A DNA stretch of 20,286 nucleotides, from positions 1 through 20,286 of the IMG/VR virus record IMGVR_UViG_3300032011_000174. One strand, given 5' to 3'. The stretch comes from a virus. Of the stretch, positions 789-10,085 are shown in pieces. Both the position numbers and the translations under genes were made by a program. The notes beneath the pieces were generated by a model. The model ran no database searches. It worked only from the letters and a program-made list of their open reading frames with translations, and had not been told where the DNA came from. The number at the start of each line of letters is the position of its first letter. The stretch's first letter is position 1.

Positions 789-962
789 GTGGAACTTGCT
801 GATAGTGTTAAACTATATGCTGTAAACACGGGAGCGTTTGCTGCTAGTTGTTGTGACTGGATGGAGCCAACATTAAAGATATTACTTTTAGGAGCTACTT
901 TAGGTTACACCTTACATAAATGGTATTTACTAAAGAAAGGTAACAATGAGGCAAATAAATAA
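789..962 (+). CDS. Small single-pass membrane protein upstream of the endolysin; possible holin or spanin-like
   Basis: This 57-aa ORF begins at GTG 789, the only plausible start after the in-frame stop at 768-770, and ends at TAA 960-962. The start lies one base after the preceding stop and five bases after AAAGG. The product has a polar N-terminus, a CC pair followed by DWMEP, and then one hydrophobic segment (KILLLGATLGYTLHKWYLL, about residues 30-48). A positive tail (KKGNNEANK) follows. It overlaps the endolysin start by 17 nt, suggesting coupled translation. A small membrane protein next to an amidase fits a holin or other lysis accessory, but a stronger holin candidate lies at 2964-3440. 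The role is inferred; the membrane segment is directly visible. Confidence 0.6.
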   Translation: MELADSVKLYAVNTGAFAASCCDWMEPTLKILLLGATLGYTLHKWYLLKKGNNEANK

Positions 963-1359
963 AATTATAGTACACTGCTCAGCTACGCGTGATGGTCAAG
1001 ATGTATCAGTTGATACTATCAGGAAATGGCACGTAGAAGGTAGAGGGTGGTCCGATATAGGGTATCATTTTTATATAGATATTTTTGGGAGAATTCACAA
1101 AGGTAGAGATATAGCAAAAATGGGTGCTCATTGTAAAGGATATAATAGAAACTCGATAGGAGTTTGTTATGCGGGTGGAGTCGAAGAAGACGGGAAAACA
1201 CCAGCAGACACAAGAACATTTGAACAAGAAGAAGCATTATTATGTGTTCTTCGAACACTAAAAGCAATGTATCCAAATGCGGTAATTCACTCGCATAGGG
1301 ATTTTGCAAACAAAGCATGTCCATCATTTGATGCGACAGAAGAATACAAAAACATATAA
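946..1359 (+). CDS. Endolysin: N-acetylmuramoyl-L-alanine amidase, T7 lysozyme-like (Amidase_2)
   Basis: This enzyme hydrolyses the amide bond between N-acetylmuramic acid and L-alanine in peptidoglycan, lysing the cell from the periplasm once the inner membrane is breached. The 137-aa length is close to T7 lysozyme (151 aa) and covers one Amidase_2/PGRP-type domain. The expected residues are visible. Zinc ligands by comparison with T7 are H10 (in IIVHCSAT), H117 (in HSHRDF) and C125 (in KACPSFD). Catalytic residues are Y40 (in GWSDIGYHFYI) and K123. The block NRNSIGVCYAGG (residues 67-78) is also typical. There is no signal peptide, so export depends on a holin. ATG 946 sits inside the end of the small membrane-protein gene and follows AAAGG with a 5-nt spacer. 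Confidence 0.95.
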   Translation: MRQINKIIVHCSATRDGQDVSVDTIRKWHVEGRGWSDIGYHFYIDIFGRIHKGRDIAKMGAHCKGYNRNSIGVCYAGGVEEDGKTPADTRTFEQEEALLCVLRTLKAMYPNAVIHSHRDFANKACPSFDATEEYKNI

Positions 1360-1369
1360 TTTAAAAATT

Positions 1370-1798
1370 ATGGCAAAAACAGCAAGAACAACAACATCAG
1401 CAATGAAAGGTGTTGAAGCAATTATGGGTGGGGCAGAAGCTATGAATGTAGCAAAAGGAGCAGTTATTACTCCATCTCCAGCAACTAGATTAGACACACC
1501 AACACCAACTCCAAATACACCAGTTGGAATACCGGCTATTACTAGTGTTGATCAATTTCGCAGTGACGCCCCGAAAAGAGCTGGTGGATATGATGGAGAT
1601 CCAGGTGAAAAAGGTGGTCCTACAGGCGGTGAAAAAGGCGGCAACGAGAAACTTATTGGCGGGATTGGGAAATTCTTACAAGCAAATCTTAAAGCAGCAC
1701 AACGAGCTGTAAAAGCACATAGCGGAGGGAAGTCAACAAGTAAGAAATCAAAGCCAAGTGAAAAAAATGGCGACAAAGACAAGTATAAAAATGGATAA
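1370..1798 (+). CDS. Low-complexity hypothetical protein with Gly-X-Y stretch and basic tail (142 aa)
   Basis: ATG 1370 is chosen over the in-frame ATG 1304 because 1304 lies inside the endolysin gene, whereas 1370 follows the endolysin stop and an A/T leader (TTTAAAAATT). The product has a helical Ala/Met/Gly-rich head (about residues 10-30). A Thr/Pro-rich linker follows (TPTPTPNTPVGIP, about 45-57), then a glycine-rich part with a few Gly-X-Y triplets (GYDGDPGEKGGP, about 73-84). The C-terminus is strongly basic (KKSKPSEKNGDKDKYKNG). It is probably largely disordered. I do not recognise the family. The composition would suit a virion-associated or DNA-interacting protein, but that is a guess. 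The overlapping +1-frame and antisense ORFs are shadows. Confidence 0.7.
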   Translation: MAKTARTTTSAMKGVEAIMGGAEAMNVAKGAVITPSPATRLDTPTPTPNTPVGIPAITSVDQFRSDAPKRAGGYDGDPGEKGGPTGGEKGGNEKLIGGIGKFLQANLKAAQRAVKAHSGGKSTSKKSKPSEKNGDKDKYKNG

Positions 1799-2006
1799 AT
1801 ACGAAGACAAGGAAGCGTCTATGGACGACTATTCGCATGAAAAAAAACTGGGTGCTGACGGAAGGTATGATTTAGAACATGGGCATAAGTCATGGGCTAA
1901 GAATGATTTTGATCACGCTCACGCTTTAAAAGACGATGCTCACGATGACGCATATCACAGACATTCTAGAACTAAGGTTTTGAAACATATGGGTAGTCGC
2001 GCATAA
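1791..2006 (+). CDS. Histidine/aspartate-rich small protein (71 aa), possible metal binder
   Basis: The function is unknown. Nine of about 71 residues are histidine, mostly paired with Asp: DLEHGHKSW, DFDHAHALKDDAHDD and YHRHSR. This looks like a low-specificity metal-binding stretch. It has no cysteine and no hydrophobic segment. Start choice is uncertain. ATG 1791 overlaps the upstream gene by 8 nt and follows AAGTATAAAA; ATG 1767 (in frame, 8 residues longer) and GTG 1758 would overlap it more. I prefer 1791 because overlaps here are usually short. The next gene begins 9 nt after the stop with its own A/T leader. Metal binding is inferred from composition only. Confidence 0.6.
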   Translation: MDKYEDKEASMDDYSHEKKLGADGRYDLEHGHKSWAKNDFDHAHALKDDAHDDAYHRHSRTKVLKHMGSRA

Positions 2007-2015
2007 AATAATATT

Positions 2016-2183
2016 ATGAAATCAAAAGGACTAGGTGACACTATTGAAAAATTTACTACCAGAACAGGTATTAAAAAATTAGCAGATAAAATTCCAGGAG
2101 GATGTAATTGTGACTATCGAAAAGATTGGTTTAACAAAAACTTTCCTTATAAGAATACTAAGTCTGGTCCTTTACATAAATAA
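2016..2183 (+). CDS. CxC/FPYKN microprotein, copy 1 (55 aa)
   Basis: This short ORF starts at ATG 2016 after AAATAATATT and ends at TAA 2181-2183. The product reads GLGDTIEKFTTRTGIKK near the N-terminus, then GGCNCDYRKDWFNK and FPYKN. It is clearly related to the 67-aa product of 2795-2998, which carries the same order: GLGDTIEK, T-x-TGIKK, C-x-C, RK, NK and FPYKN. Conservation of two copies in one genome shows it is a real gene. The CxC pair followed by basic and aromatic residues could bind metal or form a disulfide, but with only two cysteines a full zinc site would need a partner or dimer. I recall similar sequences in flavobacterial phages, with no known function. Confidence 0.75.
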   Translation: MKSKGLGDTIEKFTTRTGIKKLADKIPGGCNCDYRKDWFNKNFPYKNTKSGPLHK

Positions 2184-2189
2184 ATAATT

Positions 2190-2402
2190 ATGGCTAGATT
2201 ATCATCAGAACAAAGAAAAAAAATGAAAGCTAGTGCTTTCTGTGGACCTGACCGATCTTTTCCAGTTCCTGATTGCGATCATGTTATTGCTGCAAGGCGA
2301 ATGATAGATCGATATAAAGGTGAAGGAAGTAAAGAACGTATCATGGCTTGCGTAGAAAGAAAAGCCAAAACAATGTCTTGTAAAACTAAATCAGATAAAT
2401 AA
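2190..2402 (+). CDS. Conserved small Cys-containing protein, FCGPDRSFP...DCDH motif (70 aa)
   Basis: The 70-aa product carries a motif I recall from many phage proteins: SAFCGPDRSFPVPDCDHVIAA (residues 15-35), followed by RMIDRYKG and a C-terminal block RIMACVERKAK. In other phages this segment often stands alone or at the end of a larger structural or protease-region protein; its role is not known to me. Four cysteines (in FCGP, PDCDH, MACV and MSCK) plus the DH pair could form a zinc site, which is an inference. The gene starts at ATG 2190 after TAAATAATT, and its TAA shares one base with the next ATG (TAATG), so translation is probably coupled. Confidence 0.75.
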   Translation: MARLSSEQRKKMKASAFCGPDRSFPVPDCDHVIAARRMIDRYKGEGSKERIMACVERKAKTMSCKTKSDK

Positions 2403-2617
2403 TGGCACATCATAAAAATCTAGTAGAAAAATTAACTCCTGGTCAACAAATAATGCTAGGTCAATCACCGTTTCCGAAAACACAGATTAACTCACCAAGG
2501 TATAATGACATGCAAAAAGCGGCAAGCACAGTGCAAGATTTAAAAAAAATGGAGCTTTATAGACCAAACAAAGGTAGTTCAAGAAGAAAAGCTTTTGAAG
2601 AAAAATTAAACAGTTAG
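2402..2617 (+). CDS. Small basic hypothetical protein (71 aa)
   Basis: It starts with the last A of the preceding stop codon (TAATG) and ends at TAG 2615-2617. The product is basic and hydrophilic: MAHHKNLVEKLTPGQQIMLGQ at the start, SPFPKTQINSPRYNDMQKAAST in the middle (split here as SPFPKTQ and INSPRYNDMQ), and a Lys/Arg-rich end (SSRRKAFEEKLNS). No cysteine, membrane helix or known domain is seen. The tight coupling to 2190-2402 suggests that the two are made together. The function is unknown. Confidence 0.65.
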   Translation: MAHHKNLVEKLTPGQQIMLGQSPFPKTQINSPRYNDMQKAASTVQDLKKMELYRPNKGSSRRKAFEEKLNS

Positions 2618-2621
2618 CAAA

Positions 2622-2783
2622 ATGGATAAGATAAAAATAGTAATTAACTCACCGTTGTTTAGAACGGGAATGTGTGTAGCTATTGGTATAGCATTATTGA
2701 TTGAAAATCATCTAATGTATTCTGGCATGGCACTAGGAGTAGGATTAAGAGAGTTTTTCTTAGCATTTAAAGAAGGAGAATAA
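2622..2783 (+). CDS. Small hydrophobic membrane protein (53 aa)
   Basis: This short ORF begins at ATG 2622, four bases after the preceding stop, and ends at TAA 2781-2783. It has a short polar head (MDKIKIVINSPLFR). One or two hydrophobic segments follow: GMCVAIGIALLI (about residues 16-27) and MYSGMALGVGLREFFLAF (about 32-49). The end is charged (KEGE). This pattern suggests a hairpin or single-pass inner-membrane protein and would fit a small holin, antiholin or other lysis regulator, since the endolysin and a 3TM-type holin are nearby. The membrane character is visible; the lysis role is inferred from location. Confidence 0.6.
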   Translation: MDKIKIVINSPLFRTGMCVAIGIALLIENHLMYSGMALGVGLREFFLAFKEGE

Positions 2784-2794
2784 AAAAAAATATA

Positions 2795-2998
2795 ATGGAA
2801 TCAAATGAATCAAAAGGATTGGGAGATACAATCGAAAAAATAACCACTGCAACTGGAATAAAAAAAGTAGTAGATACAGTAAGTAAAGTTACAAAGAAAC
2901 CATGTGGTTGTGGTAAAAGGAAAGAAGCTTTAAACAAAGCATTTCCTTATAAAAATGCTAATAATGAGCAAACAGAAGAAACCAAGAAAGAAGTTTAA
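2795..2998 (+). CDS. CxC/FPYKN microprotein, copy 2 (67 aa)
   Basis: This is the longer paralog of 2016-2183. It shares KGLGDTIEK, T-x-TGIKK, a C-x-C pair (here CGCGKRKEALNK) and FPYKN in the same order. It adds a VDTVSKVTKK spacer and an acidic/basic tail (NEQTEETKKEV). The two copies are separated by three unrelated small genes, so they arose by duplication with later insertion, or by an old tandem duplication that diverged; DNA identity is only partial. The C-terminal 35 nt overlap the start of the holin gene. The role is unknown. The position just before the holin hints at lysis or late regulation, but nothing in the sequence proves it. Confidence 0.75.
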   Translation: MESNESKGLGDTIEKITTATGIKKVVDTVSKVTKKPCGCGKRKEALNKAFPYKNANNEQTEETKKEV

Positions 2999-3440
2999 AG
3001 AAACTAAAGTTGGGATATTTTTAAAAGAAAAAGGTCCTAAAATTTTAGATACTATTGGAGACGTTCTTCCAAGCAATGGGGTTTATGGAGTTGTAAAAAA
3101 CTTGATATCTCAAGATGAAGAAATGGATCCTGTAGATAAAGATTTAGTTTTGAAAATGATTGATCAAGACATTGCAGAGATGAATAGTGTTTCTGAAAGA
3201 TGGCAATATGATATGCAATCTGATTCTTGGTTAAGCAAAAATACAAGACCGTTAGCTTTAATATACCTAACAGTATGTATGACTTTATTTATAGTATTTG
3301 ACTCTATACAGTTATTGTTTGACATGAAAGCTGCTTGGATCGATTTATTACAAACATTATTAGTAACAGTATATGTAGCTTACTTTGGCTCTAGAGGAGC
3401 TGAAAAAGTATTTATAAATAAAAATAAAAACAAACAATGA
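2964..3440 (+). CDS. Holin, 3TM gene-transfer/phage holin family-like (158 aa)
   Basis: This is the likely holin that forms the inner-membrane lesion and frees the amidase. A basic N-terminus (MSKQKKPRKKFKETKVG) and a helical region with IGDVLPSNGVYGVVKNLI come first. Next is the block SVSERWQYDMQSDSWLSKNT (about residues 75-94), then RPLALIYLTVCMTLFIVF (TM1, about 95-115) and WIDLLQTLLVTVYVAYFG (TM2, about 125-142), ending GSRGAEKVF. The SDSWLSKNxRPL-TM-TM-YFGSRGxEK layout is what I recall for the 3TM holin family found in flavobacterial phages; only two strong membrane helices are obvious. ATG 2964 is preferred over in-frame ATG 2955 because homologs, as remembered, begin MSKQKKPRKKFK. It overlaps the upstream gene by 35 nt and the downstream gene by 4 nt (ATGA). 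Confidence 0.8.
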   Translation: MSKQKKPRKKFKETKVGIFLKEKGPKILDTIGDVLPSNGVYGVVKNLISQDEEMDPVDKDLVLKMIDQDIAEMNSVSERWQYDMQSDSWLSKNTRPLALIYLTVCMTLFIVFDSIQLLFDMKAAWIDLLQTLLVTVYVAYFGSRGAEKVFINKNKNKQ

Positions 3441-5346: not shown

Positions 5347-5464
5347 TGCTTTTGAGATTCTGCAAAGAATAGAAGAAGAAGAAACCTTACTAAGTGGTAA
5401 ACCTAAAGAAGAGATAAAAACTCAACGACCATTCAAGGGGTTTGCAGAAAGTAGATCATCATGA
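5231..5464 (+). CDS. Small helical protein in the TerS position (77 aa)
   Basis: The product is all-helical in appearance: MAVNELIKVAKEPIVDTGED, then ADRLKNAAATKKLAIFDAFE (about residues 22-41), then charged LQRIEEEETLL and a basic end (GFAESRSS). I recall ADRLKNAAATKKLAIFDAFEIL-type sequences in small proteins just before TerL in marine phages. The place, size and helical nature fit a small terminase subunit, which binds DNA and starts packaging, but no helix-turn-helix is certain. ATG 5231 is preferred over ATG 5186, which would extend the overlap with the GroES-like gene to 161 nt. Even from 5231 it shares 116 nt with that gene. The stop overlaps the TerL start by ATGA. Confidence 0.55.
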   Translation: MAVNELIKVAKEPIVDTGEDVTADRLKNAAATKKLAIFDAFEILQRIEEEETLLSGKPKEEIKTQRPFKGFAESRSS

Positions 5465-7689
5465 GTTATAAGCAAGCACTTTGGAAAGAGATTAAAGACG
5501 TAGTTAACCCAAAAATTCTTAAAAAGAAAAATAGATTTAAGAAATGGGAATATGGTTATGATCCAGAATACGATTTTGTTTGTATAAGTAAAACAGGTAA
5601 AATTGGACAAATAATTGAACTTCAAAATTTACGTATAGCTTTACCAGCAGTTAATGATCCTTTTAAACGAGATGAAGATAAAAAAGAACAGTACTGGGAA
5701 CAAGCTGAATATCCTAAAGTTTTAAGTAAAATCAAAAGTAGGTTTGATTGGGAAAAGTATCCTCAAGATTTTAGGGAAGAATGGTGGGATTATATAGATG
5801 AAGAATTTAAAAGAAGAGATGAAGGATTTTGGTTTTATAACAATGGCAAACCTACTTATATCACTGGTACTCATTACATGTACTTGCAGTGGTCAAAGAT
5901 TGATGTGGGAGCACCAGATTACAGAGAATCAAATAGACTATTCTTTATCTTCTGGGAGGCTTGTAAAGCCGACACTAGGTGTTATGGGATGTGCTACCTT
6001 AAAAATAGACGATCTGGATTTTCCTTTATGTCGTCCGCTGAACTGGTTAATCAAGCAACCATATCATCCGACAGTAGATACGGGATTTTATCTAAGACTG
6101 GTGCAGATGCTAAAAAAATGTTCACAGATAAAGTTGTACCAATCTCGGTTAACTATCCGTTTTTCTTCAAACCAATCCAAGATGGTATGGATCGCCCTAA
6201 AACCGAATTGGCATACAGGGTTCCGGCATCTAAACTTACACGTAGAAAATTGGAGGTCAATGAAGAGCTTAGAGAATTAGAAGGATTAGATACCACTATA
6301 GATTGGAAAAACACTGGCGATAATAGTTATGATGGTGAAAAGCTAAAACTACTAGCTCATGATGAAAGTGGTAAATGGGAAAGACCAGATAACATATTAA
6401 ACAACTGGAGAGTTACAAAAACCACCTTAAGATTAGGATCAAGAATTGTAGGTAAATGCATGATGGGTTCAACATCCAACGCTTTAGATAAGGGTGGAGA
6501 TAACTTTAAAAAACTATATTATAATTCAGATGTCTCAAAAAGAAATAGAAATGGACAAACAGCTTCAGGCCTCTATAGTCTATTCATTCCTATGGAATGG
6601 TCCTACGAAGGATACATTGATATGCATGGAGTTCCTGTGTTCGACACTCCAAAAAACCCCGTACGAGGTATTGATAGATCACTTATCAGAATTGGAGTTA
6701 TTGAGCATTGGGACAACGAAGCTCACGGTTTAAAAGATGACCAAGATGCGTTAAACGAATTTTACAGACAATTCCCCAGAACTGAAAAGCATGCGTTTAG
6801 AGATGAGACTAAAGCTTCTTTATTTAATTTAGTTAAGATATACGAACAAATAGATTACAACGAAGAATTAAATAACAAAGCGGAAATAACAAGAGGCAAC
6901 TTCCAATGGGAGCACGGTGTTAAAGATACTAGAGTAATGTTTTTTCCTAACAATCAAGGTAGATTTTTTGTTTCATGGGTTCCACCTAAAGAATTGCAAA
7001 ATCAAGTGATTATAAAAAATGGGATTAAATATCCTGGTAATGAGTGGATTGGAGCTTTTGGATGTGATAGTTATGATATATCTGGAACAGTAGATGGTAA
7101 AGGGTCGAAAGGATCACTACATGGGTTGACTAAATTTTGTATGGCAGACGTTCCTCCTAACAAGTTTTTTTTAGAATATATAGAAAGACCTCCTACTGCT
7201 GAAATATTTTTTGAAGATGTATTAATGGCTTTGCATTTTTATGGTATGCAGATATTAGCAGAAAACAATAAACCTAGATTGTTATACTACTTAAAAAGAA
7301 GAGGATATAGACAGTTCAGTATGAACAGACCTGACAGAGTTTGGAACAAACTGTCTGTAACAGAAAAAGAAGTAGGAGGAGTACCTAACTCTAGTGAAGA
7401 TATGAAACAATCTCACGCAGCTGCTATTGAAACTTATATTGATACTTTTATTGGTCAAACAGATATGGGCTACGGAGACATGCATTTCCAACGAACATTA
7501 GAAGATTGGGCGAGATTTGATATAAACAATAGAACTAAACACGATGCCTCTATAAGTTCTGGATTAGCCTTAATGGCTTGTCACAAAAATAGATATAAAC
7601 CTACTGCACCAAGAACAATGAAAAAAATGCAGCTAGGACTAGTAAAATATAATAACGATGGTAATATGTCAAAAATAAATTTCAAATGA
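5461..7689 (+). CDS. terL: Terminase large subunit (TerL; packaging ATPase and nuclease)
   Basis: This is the DNA-packaging motor and nuclease that acts at the portal. At 742 aa it is longer than most TerLs but in the range of crAss-like ones. The ATPase domain has K181-N-R-R-S-G-F-S-F, a deviant Walker A in which the usual lysine is replaced and K181 lies upstream, much like lambda gpA (KSARVGYSK). This is followed by GILSKTGADAKKMFTDKVVP. The Walker B carries D301-E302 (LLAHDES), and GSTSN (about 340) fits a coupling motif. The RNase H-like nuclease shows FGCDSYDIS (D536, D539) and KHDASISSGLALMA (D695) as likely metal-binding acids. It overlaps TerS and portal by 4 nt at each end (ATGA). 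The 5798-6280 ORF inside it is a shadow. Confidence 0.93.
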   Translation: MSYKQALWKEIKDVVNPKILKKKNRFKKWEYGYDPEYDFVCISKTGKIGQIIELQNLRIALPAVNDPFKRDEDKKEQYWEQAEYPKVLSKIKSRFDWEKYPQDFREEWWDYIDEEFKRRDEGFWFYNNGKPTYITGTHYMYLQWSKIDVGAPDYRESNRLFFIFWEACKADTRCYGMCYLKNRRSGFSFMSSAELVNQATISSDSRYGILSKTGADAKKMFTDKVVPISVNYPFFFKPIQDGMDRPKTELAYRVPASKLTRRKLEVNEELRELEGLDTTIDWKNTGDNSYDGEKLKLLAHDESGKWERPDNILNNWRVTKTTLRLGSRIVGKCMMGSTSNALDKGGDNFKKLYYNSDVSKRNRNGQTASGLYSLFIPMEWSYEGYIDMHGVPVFDTPKNPVRGIDRSLIRIGVIEHWDNEAHGLKDDQDALNEFYRQFPRTEKHAFRDETKASLFNLVKIYEQIDYNEELNNKAEITRGNFQWEHGVKDTRVMFFPNNQGRFFVSWVPPKELQNQVIIKNGIKYPGNEWIGAFGCDSYDISGTVDGKGSKGSLHGLTKFCMADVPPNKFFLEYIERPPTAEIFFEDVLMALHFYGMQILAENNKPRLLYYLKRRGYRQFSMNRPDRVWNKLSVTEKEVGGVPNSSEDMKQSHAAAIETYIDTFIGQTDMGYGDMHFQRTLEDWARFDINNRTKHDASISSGLALMACHKNRYKPTAPRTMKKMQLGLVKYNNDGNMSKINFK

Positions 7690-10085
7690 TTTATACTAAT
7701 ACGAGAAGTTCATTTCCTGATCAGGTGGTACCGCAGGAAGAGAAAGAATCCTTGGAGTATGGATTGTTAGTTGCTAGAGCTATAGAAGGAGAATGGTGGA
7801 GTACCGGCATGGGTGGTATGAGATATTCTAACAACTATAACATTTTTCACAATAGACGATTATACGCTAGAGGAGAACAGAATATTCAAAAATATAAAGA
7901 TGAATTAGCTATAAATGGAGATTTATCTTATTTAAATCTAGACTGGCAACCAGTTCCGATTATACCTAAATTTGTAGATATAGTTGTTAATGGAATGAAT
8001 GAAAAGATTTATGACATTAAAGCCTACGCACAAGATCCAGCTTCTCAAAAAACGAGAACGGATTACGCAAGAAAATTACATAAAAACATTAAGATTAGAG
8101 AGTATGTTAATACTCTTCAAGAACAGCTAGGAGTTGACATCTCAGAAGTTAATCAAGAAGAAGCTCCTCAAACTGAACAAGAATTAGAAATTCACTTGCA
8201 GCTAGACTACAAGCAATCTATTGAAATAGCGGAAGAAGAATTAATAAATAACGTTTTAGATAGAAACAAGTTTGAACTTGTAAAAGGAAGATTTAATAAA
8301 GATATTGTCGAGCTAGGAATAGGGTCAGTTAAAACAAATTGGAACGCTTCTAATGGCGTTGTAGTAGATTATTGTGATCCTGCTAATTTAGTATGGTCAT
8401 ATACTACTGATCCTAATTTTGAAGATATTTATTATGTAGGAGAAGTGAAAAGCGTAAGTCTTCCAGAACTGAAAAAAGAATTCCCTAACTTAACTAATGA
8501 AGAGTTAGAGACTATTCAAAAATTTCCAGGTAATCAAAATTATAGTAGAAATTGGACAGGAAGATACGACAATGATACGGTTCAAGTTTTATATTTTGAA
8601 TATAAAACCTACATGGATCAAGTTTTTAAGATTAAGCAGACAGAAACTGGTTTAGAAAAAGCTTTGGAAAAACCTGATACTTTTAATCCACCCGAAAACG
8701 ACAACTTCGAAAGAGTAAGCAGATCAATAGAGGTACTATATAGTGGAGCTAAAATATTAGGACATCCTATAATGTTAAAGTGGGAAATGGCACGTAACAT
8801 GACACGCCCAAAGTCAGATTTAACAAAAGTTAAAATGAATTACGTTTTGTGTGCACCTAGTATGTATAAAGGAAGAATTAATTCTTTAGTTGAAAGAATG
8901 ATGCCTTTTGCAGATATGATTCAAATAACATCTCTAAAGCTACAACAAGTTTTATCTCGCATGGTCCCTGATGGGATATATTTAGATGTAGACGGGTTAG
9001 CTGAAGTAGACTTAGGTAATGGTACACACTATAATCCTAAGGAAGCATTGAATATGTATTTTCAAACTGGTAGTATTGTAGGTAGATCTATGACACAGGA
9101 TGGAGATATGAACCCAGGTAAAGTGCCTATTCAAGAGTTACAATCTTCAGCTGGACAAGCTAAAATACAGTCACTGATACAAACATATCAGTATTACCTT
9201 CAAATGATCAGAGATGTCACCGGATTGAACGAGGCGAGGGATGGCAGCCAGCCGGATAAAGATGCGTTATTAGGATTGCAAAAATTAGCTGTAGCTCAGT
9301 CTAATGTAGCAACAAGAAACTTGTTAGATGCGAGTTTGTATTTAACGCTAAGAGCTTGTGAAAACGTAGCACTAAGAGTTGGTGATAGTTTAGAATATGC
9401 TTTAACTAGAGAAGCTTTAATTAACAGCATAAGTTTATATAATGTAGCCACTTTAGAAGAAATAAAAGATATTCATTTGTATGATTTTGGTATATTCTTA
9501 GAACTAGAACCTGACGAAGAAGAAAAAGCTTTACTCGAGCAAGATATTCAAATCGCTTTAAAAACTCAAACTATAGGACTAGAAGATGCTATAGATATAC
9601 GAGAGATCAAAAACTTAAAACTAGCAAATCAGCTTCTTAAAATTAAACAAAAGAAAAAGAGAGAAGCAGATAACAAACAGCAAGAGAAAATGATCCAAAT
9701 GCAAGCACAGGCCCAAGCTGAAACAGCTGAAAAAACCGCCGCTGCTGAAGTTCAAAAGCAACAAGCTATTGCTCAAACCACATTGCAAATAGAACAAGGT
9801 AAAGTTCAGTTTGATATTCAAAAAATTCAAGAAGAATATAAACTAAAAATGCAAATGGCTCAAAAGAAGTTTGAATACGATATGGAGTTAACTAAAGCAG
9901 ATATACAAAAAGACTTAGATAGAGAAAAATCTATCGAAGATAGAAAAGACAAAAGAAGTGCTCAAGAAGCTAGTCAACAGAGCTGGATGATAGAGCAAAG
10001 AGAAAAAGGATTATTACCGAGAAATTTTGAGTCTCAAGGTGATTTAAGTGCAAATACAAACTTAAACCCTATGAATCCTGTTTAA
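7686..10085 (+). CDS. Portal protein with long C-terminal coiled coil (799 aa)
   Basis: This protein forms the dodecameric ring at the unique capsid vertex through which TerL packs DNA. Evidence is its position directly after TerL (4-nt ATGA overlap), its length, and typical portal text. Examples are RLYARGEQNIQKYKDEL, then NLDWQPVPIIPKFVDIVVNG (about residues 75-110), and IQSLIQTYQYYLQMIRDVTG (about 490-510) followed by RDGSQPDKDALLG. The block FLELEPDEEEKALLEQDI then KTQTIGLEDAIDIREIKNLK (about 602-645) is one I recall in Bacteroidetes phage portals. Residues about 650-770 are a Gln/Lys/Glu-rich helix, probably the coiled-coil barrel or crown. The end (LNPMNPV) is followed by a 21-nt A/T-rich gap. 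Confidence 0.88.
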   Translation: MIYTNTRSSFPDQVVPQEEKESLEYGLLVARAIEGEWWSTGMGGMRYSNNYNIFHNRRLYARGEQNIQKYKDELAINGDLSYLNLDWQPVPIIPKFVDIVVNGMNEKIYDIKAYAQDPASQKTRTDYARKLHKNIKIREYVNTLQEQLGVDISEVNQEEAPQTEQELEIHLQLDYKQSIEIAEEELINNVLDRNKFELVKGRFNKDIVELGIGSVKTNWNASNGVVVDYCDPANLVWSYTTDPNFEDIYYVGEVKSVSLPELKKEFPNLTNEELETIQKFPGNQNYSRNWTGRYDNDTVQVLYFEYKTYMDQVFKIKQTETGLEKALEKPDTFNPPENDNFERVSRSIEVLYSGAKILGHPIMLKWEMARNMTRPKSDLTKVKMNYVLCAPSMYKGRINSLVERMMPFADMIQITSLKLQQVLSRMVPDGIYLDVDGLAEVDLGNGTHYNPKEALNMYFQTGSIVGRSMTQDGDMNPGKVPIQELQSSAGQAKIQSLIQTYQYYLQMIRDVTGLNEARDGSQPDKDALLGLQKLAVAQSNVATRNLLDASLYLTLRACENVALRVGDSLEYALTREALINSISLYNVATLEEIKDIHLYDFGIFLELEPDEEEKALLEQDIQIALKTQTIGLEDAIDIREIKNLKLANQLLKIKQKKKREADNKQQEKMIQMQAQAQAETAEKTAAAEVQKQQAIAQTTLQIEQGKVQFDIQKIQEEYKLKMQMAQKKFEYDMELTKADIQKDLDREKSIEDRKDKRSAQEASQQSWMIEQREKGLLPRNFESQGDLSANTNLNPMNPV

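Follow-up and report, generated by a model that had tools for sequence, protein, structure and literature searches.

Genes of the window

The window, i.e., the whole stretch of DNA that was analysed, is a linear IMG/VR virus record of 20,286 bases that carries on its plus strand genes for an amidase, a holin, the terminase large subunit, a portal protein and virion structural proteins (Table 1). Two small genes with related products, designated copy A and copy B, lie downstream of the amidase gene and are separated by exactly three open reading frames (g8, g9 and g10). If the ATG at 2964 is used, the start of the holin gene overlaps the end of copy B by 35 nt. Neither tRNAs nor known Rfam RNA genes were found in the window, and no anti-phage defence genes were detected with PADLOC. 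Pfam matches of copy B to PDC10_C (E 0.046) and of g10 to Pardaxin (E 0.17) were below cut-off and were taken as chance.

Table 1. Features of the window in order of position
Feature	Position	Strand	Description
N-acetylmuramoyl-L-alanine amidase	946..1359	+	PF01510, E 7e-13; PHROG 822, E 7e-56
Copy A	2016..2183	+	55 aa; short form, A-subtype (WFNKNFPYKN); C-x-C is CNC; slot 1, ahead of g8, g9 and the membrane-protein gene
g8	2190..2402	+	70 aa; PHROG 16160 (unknown function), E 1.3e-11
g9	2402..2617	+	71 aa; no library match
g10	2622..2783	+	53 aa; apparent single membrane helix (own reading); divides slot 1 from slot 2
Copy B	2795..2998	+	67 aa; short form, B-subtype; C-x-C is CGC; slot 2, immediately 5' of holin
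Holin	2964..3440	+	PHROG 3427, E 1.2e-18
Terminase large subunit	5461..7689	+	PHROG 6681, E 2e-164
Portal	7686..10085	+	PHROG 6547, E 1e-146; PF16510 over cut-off

Homology of A and B and conservation of the family

The products of copies A and B were 58% identical (29/50 amino acids, E 3e-18 in a single BLASTP comparison) and had in common, in this order, SKGLGDTIEK, TT-x-TGIKK, C-x-C, RK, NK and FPYKN. Relatives of A were encoded on at least 576 IMG/VR stretches and relatives of B on 558; the best 80 of each set were analysed. Given these hundreds of stretches, the homology of A and B is not attributable to chance. Hosts, where visible, were mostly Bacteroidota. Across 166 aligned domains, a set that includes three copies of the window's own A/B pair, the residues G, GD, T, TG, C-x-C, N and PY were invariant in 165–166. 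The core G-x-GD...TG...C-x-C...N...PY was also present in a longer type of protein described below, and A, B and these long forms make up one protein family by this shared core.

Retention of the cysteines was assessed with homologues found by a DNA pattern on the N-terminal half of the gene, which left the cysteines outside the pattern and returned at least 120 loci; among the matches listed, C-x-C was encoded downstream in 119 of 120 homologues, the sole miss being cut by a contig end. Pairwise omega values (Nei-Gojobori, 39 conserved codons, each copy against its 14 closest relatives) were 0.05–0.23 for the A lineage and 0.03–0.14 for the B lineage where dS was finite; several comparisons were saturated, and such values do not single out what happened along the A and B branches of the window once the two were joined. 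Judged by these values, both lineages appear to be under purifying selection.

Matches to the family in the libraries were limited to unnamed PHROGs, i.e., PHROG 27568 for A (E 8e-7) and PHROG 32048 for B (E 6e-7), the latter being also matched by long forms down to E 5e-12. No Pfam match above cut-off, NCBIfam match or PADLOC match was obtained. Environmental phage contigs encode hundreds of members of this family, which none of the libraries searched has named. The first-pass annotation, made from the sequence of the window alone, had described two products with the same ordered motifs, split by three small genes and belonging to a family without a known function, and had proposed retention of the C-x-C and purifying selection on both copies as checks; the results above agree with it on each of these points.

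Short and long forms of the protein

Members of the family fell into two types. The short form, to which A and B belong, was 46–70 amino acids long in nearly all cases, and the long form, of about 117–162 amino acids, consisted of the same core followed by a C-terminal domain with a second Cys pair. ORFs that agreed in their last 150 nt were merged, which reduced 376 to 316, and L238 (truncated at a contig end), L265 (a fragment from the C-terminal part) and L281 (a zinc-ribbon fusion) were left out. This gave 101 long and 215 short forms, A and B being among the 215; of the long forms, 67 had been obtained with the long-form profile and 32 with the pattern search. A second Cys pair was present in 101/101 long and 0/215 short forms. 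The commonest long-form pattern (90/101) was CxC, a Cys shortly after the core and then CxxC. Four cysteines in one chain were thus absent from the short forms including A and B, each of which has one pair.

The predicted structure of B consisted of three helices (mean pLDDT 77, tail below 50) and that of a long form of six helices plus one N-terminal helix (mean 83). Searches of the PDB with Foldseek and VIA-align gave no convincing fold match for either. In sequence searches, no PDB relative of B was found, and the best match of the long form, ATP synthase subunit b at E 0.042, was not convincing; a search of BFVD returned unnamed phage proteins alone. Judging by one of them, A0A6J5MNJ9 (77 aa, E 3e-3, TM 0.80 by target), the C-terminal domain of the long form may also occur as a protein of its own. 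In named phages, a tblastn search with the C-terminal half gave one chance-level match (E 0.7).

Two members with unusual N-terminal stretches were noted. At L281:2313-2564 (minus strand) the family core followed a stretch with two CxxC pairs that was zinc-ribbon-like, with Pfam matches below cut-off, and by our own reading a lysozyme-like ORF lay nearby. In the long form at L186:7064-7531 (minus strand) the N-terminal stretch resembled a helix-turn-helix (HTH_40, E 0.001, below cut-off).

Copy number and origin of the two-copy state

Exactly one family copy was found in 139/139 other phage records searched whole, i.e., the records behind 49 A-relative, 50 B-relative and 40 long-form loci, most of which are fragments in which some second copies may be missed. 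Within the fetched stretches, one copy was likewise present at 160/160 other loci. Three named phages had one copy each, the single gene of phage P12024S being matched as two pieces. The two copies in the window are therefore an exception and not the normal state of the family.

Differences between A and B were those between two subtypes. The spacer from TGI to the second Cys was 16 residues in 78/215 short forms and 20 in 113/215. In a tree of 36 sequences, A fell in the WFNKNFPY clade (support 98/91), whereas B grouped with the other subtype (100/99). The hypothesis that A and B are sisters was rejected on this tree (p-AU 1.2e-6), which ruled out a recent tandem duplication; on a quick 123-row tree of 47 columns it was not rejected (p 0.54).

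The arrangement of genes around the copies was informative as to how the two came to lie together. A recognisable counterpart of the membrane-protein gene g10 was present in 23 relatives, with the family gene before it in 13 and behind it in 10, and in 9 of these 10 the family gene abutted the holin gene. Thus, relatives fill either slot singly while both are filled in the window. In its backbone DNA (positions 1-198 and about 744-1372), the window was nearest to L082 and L084 (81–91%), each of which has one B-type copy. L014 and L019 also had g8 immediately after an A-type copy, and in L014 the DNA similarity to the window spanned both genes. A third locus, L081, had a copy 97% identical to B and the same order of g8, membrane-protein gene, B and holin as the window; this contig begins just upstream of g8, and its first bases match the window and include the last 7 nt of the A reading frame, which hints that the L081 phage also carries A.

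Taken together, these arrangements make it probable that A and B are long-diverged alleles of one normally single-copy gene and that the window has an L082/L084-like backbone with an acquired A-g8 cassette. In relatives the single gene would occupy a place either before the small membrane-protein gene or directly before the holin gene; on the L082/L084-like backbone, B before the holin gene would be native, and a cassette of A plus g8 would have been imported beside it into the amidase-holin interval. That interval behaves as if it were a hot spot for cassette swapping, and the two-copy state of the window illustrates how diverged versions of a gene can be brought together in a gene-swapping hot spot between endolysin and holin. 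The first-pass annotation had called the pair duplicated, had suggested a count of copies per genome and had proposed that A and B might combine their cysteines in a four-cysteine site; on the present results the pair is better described as diverged alleles in alternative slots, two copies are the exception, and an A-B heterodimer cannot be something the family needs, as single copies are found elsewhere. The four-cysteine idea is not supported for an A-B heterodimer and finds an unexpected echo in the two Cys pairs per chain of the long forms.

Between the amidase and holin genes (window 1370-2783; L001-L084) each relative had a different set of tiny genes, often Lys-rich and Cys-bearing. By our own reading, a FCGP...PV pattern like that of g8 was present in ORFs of L082–L084 in the same interval.

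Genes adjacent to long and short forms

The long form was found beside a sigma factor gene with a regularity not seen for the short form. Thus, among loci with at least 700 bp of upstream sequence, an ECF-type sigma gene lay directly upstream (-150 to 400 nt) of 84/89 long forms and 0/198 short forms, as counted with a profile built from 18 of the neighbours counted and therefore circular for those. A sigma gene was present somewhere within the stretch for 88/89 long forms; the exceptions to direct adjacency were L191, without a sigma gene, and L288, L332, L346 and L366, with one at 438–660 nt. The identity of the neighbour was indicated by matches of the profile to RpoE (E 1.6e-5), SigW and SigL in the PDB, covering regions 2 and 4 of ECF sigmas, by matches to TIGR02937 (E 6e-9) and PHROG 1740 and by PF04542, which was over cut-off for P12024S_33, although many single sigma-neighbour proteins scored below Pfam cut-offs. 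On these matches, the upstream neighbour appears to be an ECF sigma factor with regions 2 and 4 and without the large region 3.

The immediate upstream neighbour belonged to the sigma cluster at 77/91 long-form loci, compared with 32/96 for the largest downstream cluster, 13/91 for the next gene and 30/84 for the gene before sigma, so that the pair is kept together more than its surroundings. The adjacency could nonetheless be an inherited linkage within one phage group. The pair was also found on the chromosome of the cultured bacterium Galbibacter pacificus CAA-3, where a sigma ORF (L171:7086-7580, E 7.7e-16 to the profile) that was not recognised by Pfam alone lay 301 nt upstream of a long form. 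These results provide a first functional lead for the family, in that the gene for the long form is kept as the partner of phage genes for ECF sigma factors. By our own reading of the sequence, a ParB-like ORF lay downstream of the long form in L191, L229, L242 and L255.

Short forms were more variable in position. With the two window loci (L161 and L162) left out, 25/213 short forms lay directly at the holin gene (from a 31 nt overlap to a 5 nt gap), 18/213 between the amidase and holin genes, 59/213 upstream of the holin gene with the amidase gene not in view, 39/213 in the structural module after g23 and 72/213 elsewhere. Given the last two groups and the location of long forms by sigma genes, no constant association with holin or amidase held across the family. 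In the short-form phage record MW202828.1 (L164:2181-4071), groEL and a 10 kDa chaperonin were annotated near the family gene, and GroEL-like ORFs were also noted upstream in L005 and L174 (own reading).

A different sigma-70 of about 250 aa (PF04542 at 27.1 bits against a cut-off of 24; PHROG 351, E 3e-22) was encoded away from the family gene in 9/35 short-form records of at least 40 kb and in 0/15 long-form records. Among its carriers was L083 (E 5e-121), whose backbone is closely related to that of the window. The remaining 26/35 short-form records, several of them 60 kb or longer, were without a second sigma, and co-occurrence with sigma is thus not general for the short form. Genes for this protein lay away from the late region at L379:449-1201 (minus strand) and at equivalent places in L378 and L380–L386, and two copies were noted in the L137 record.

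Possible function and alternative explanations

The reading that we prefer joins the above account of the origin of the two copies to a role in transcription, and as a whole we give it a probability of roughly 0.45. Its functional part, in which the conserved C-x-C core of three helices would serve phage transcription as an accessory, either a partner or a modulator, is put forward tentatively and at rather less than even odds. A role in transcription control would be well grounded for the long form, which from its gene neighbourhood behaves like a dedicated sigma partner; for the short form we infer such a role from homology to the long form. The long form, made up of the core and a C-terminal three-helix domain with the second Cys pair, would be the partner of an ECF-type sigma and might serve as an anti-sigma factor or as a co-activator. 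It would probably hold a metal through its Cys pairs. In the window, the short form would correspond to the core by itself, expressed from the late/lysis region, and its target might be RNA polymerase or a sigma factor whose gene lies elsewhere, with a possible effect on late or lysis genes. Comparison with solved sigma partners gave no fold or sequence match for either form. A broader proposal, which seems to us rather improbable, is that the C-x-C three-helix domain defines a new class of metal-binding transcription accessories widespread in Bacteroidota phages, in which long forms would work with an ECF sigma and short forms on RNA polymerase or another sigma, their metal site being completed by dimerization. 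If true, the two alleles of the window phage would provide it with a pair of such regulators that differ in specificity.

The location of short forms among lysis or structural genes fits roles in lysis or in the virion equally well, and both were considered. The short protein could be a cytoplasmic regulator of lysis timing that acts on holin or amidase, its translation being partly coupled to that of holin; two copies would then tune the time of lysis. Abutment or overlap with the holin gene at the 25 loci noted above and a place upstream of that gene, with other genes between, at 77 more are what such a regulator would lead one to expect; the short forms in the structural module and elsewhere, the attachment of long forms to sigma genes and a predicted fold of three short helices with no evident membrane segment (own reading) are not, and this explanation appears rather doubtful. 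A minor virion or morphogenesis protein, i.e., a small head or packaging-associated component from the late operon, would account for the 39 short-form loci between g23 and the structural genes g24/g25 (PHROG 14543 and 13977) and for the terminase genes that follow in P12024S and other long-form phages. The position of the gene differs between phages, however, the long forms pair with sigma and not with one structural gene, and no match to structural families was obtained, which leaves this role unlikely.

Two further explanations concern the pair in the window. Copy A could be a decaying passenger, i.e., a functionless fragment from another phage, or could have been joined to the rest in assembly, and the uniqueness of the two-copy state among the records examined, together with the high variability of the amidase-holin interval, would be in keeping with either. 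Yet A retains the family-invariant residues, its adjacency to g8 recurs in L014 and L019, and L081 reproduces the order from g8 to holin along with the last 7 nt of the A frame, so that the join of any chimera would need to lie near the A/g8 border; we regard this account as quite unlikely. An obligate A-B heterodimer with one four-cysteine metal site appears highly improbable, since the family works in single copy elsewhere and the A and B lineages live alone in other records, even though the C-x-C is universal and the two Cys pairs per chain of the long forms make a four-cysteine site possible in principle. The proposed role in transcription can be tested directly, the pair of sigma and long form being present in a cultured phage, P12024S, as well as in the G. 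pacificus CAA-3 chromosome.

Comparison with known systems

The two PHROGs that match the family, 27568 and 32048, are unnamed, and neither describes the split into short and long forms, the second Cys pair or the linkage to sigma; no occurrence of these numbers or of the core motif strings was found in the literature searched. Nor was the sigma and long-form module found among the titles and abstract openings of the literature on phage sigma/anti-sigma pairs.

According to a review, anti-sigma factors are often co-transcribed with their sigma (PMC4598750), and the ECF anti-sigmas described there, including the zinc-binding ZASD proteins such as RsrA, resemble the long form in that a small protein with Cys pairs is encoded directly behind an ECF sigma gene. 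This position next to a sigma gene was shared by the long form (84/89) and not by the short form (0/198). The HisXXXCysXXCys motif of ZASD was, however, missing from the family (0/101 long and 0/215 short forms), by which membership among ZASD anti-sigmas was ruled out. The family also differed in that it had no fold match and that its short forms are without an adjacent sigma.

A second likeness is to T4 late transcription, in which gp55 is responsible for promoter recognition and gp33, of 112 residues, is a co-activator (PMC2988020). In both cases a sigma-type protein of the phage would have a small companion, and the analogy is one of working only. The sigma profile here spans ECF regions 2 and 4, and no solved structure was found to resemble the family in sequence or fold.

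A further counterpart is in the cultured Nonlabens phage P12024S, in which gene 33 (Sigma-70 region 2) and gene 35 form the same sigma and long-form module in the same order. The P12024S module differs in that one small gene lies between genes 33 and 35 and that the core of P12024S_35, annotated as hypothetical, has CxxC instead of CxC.
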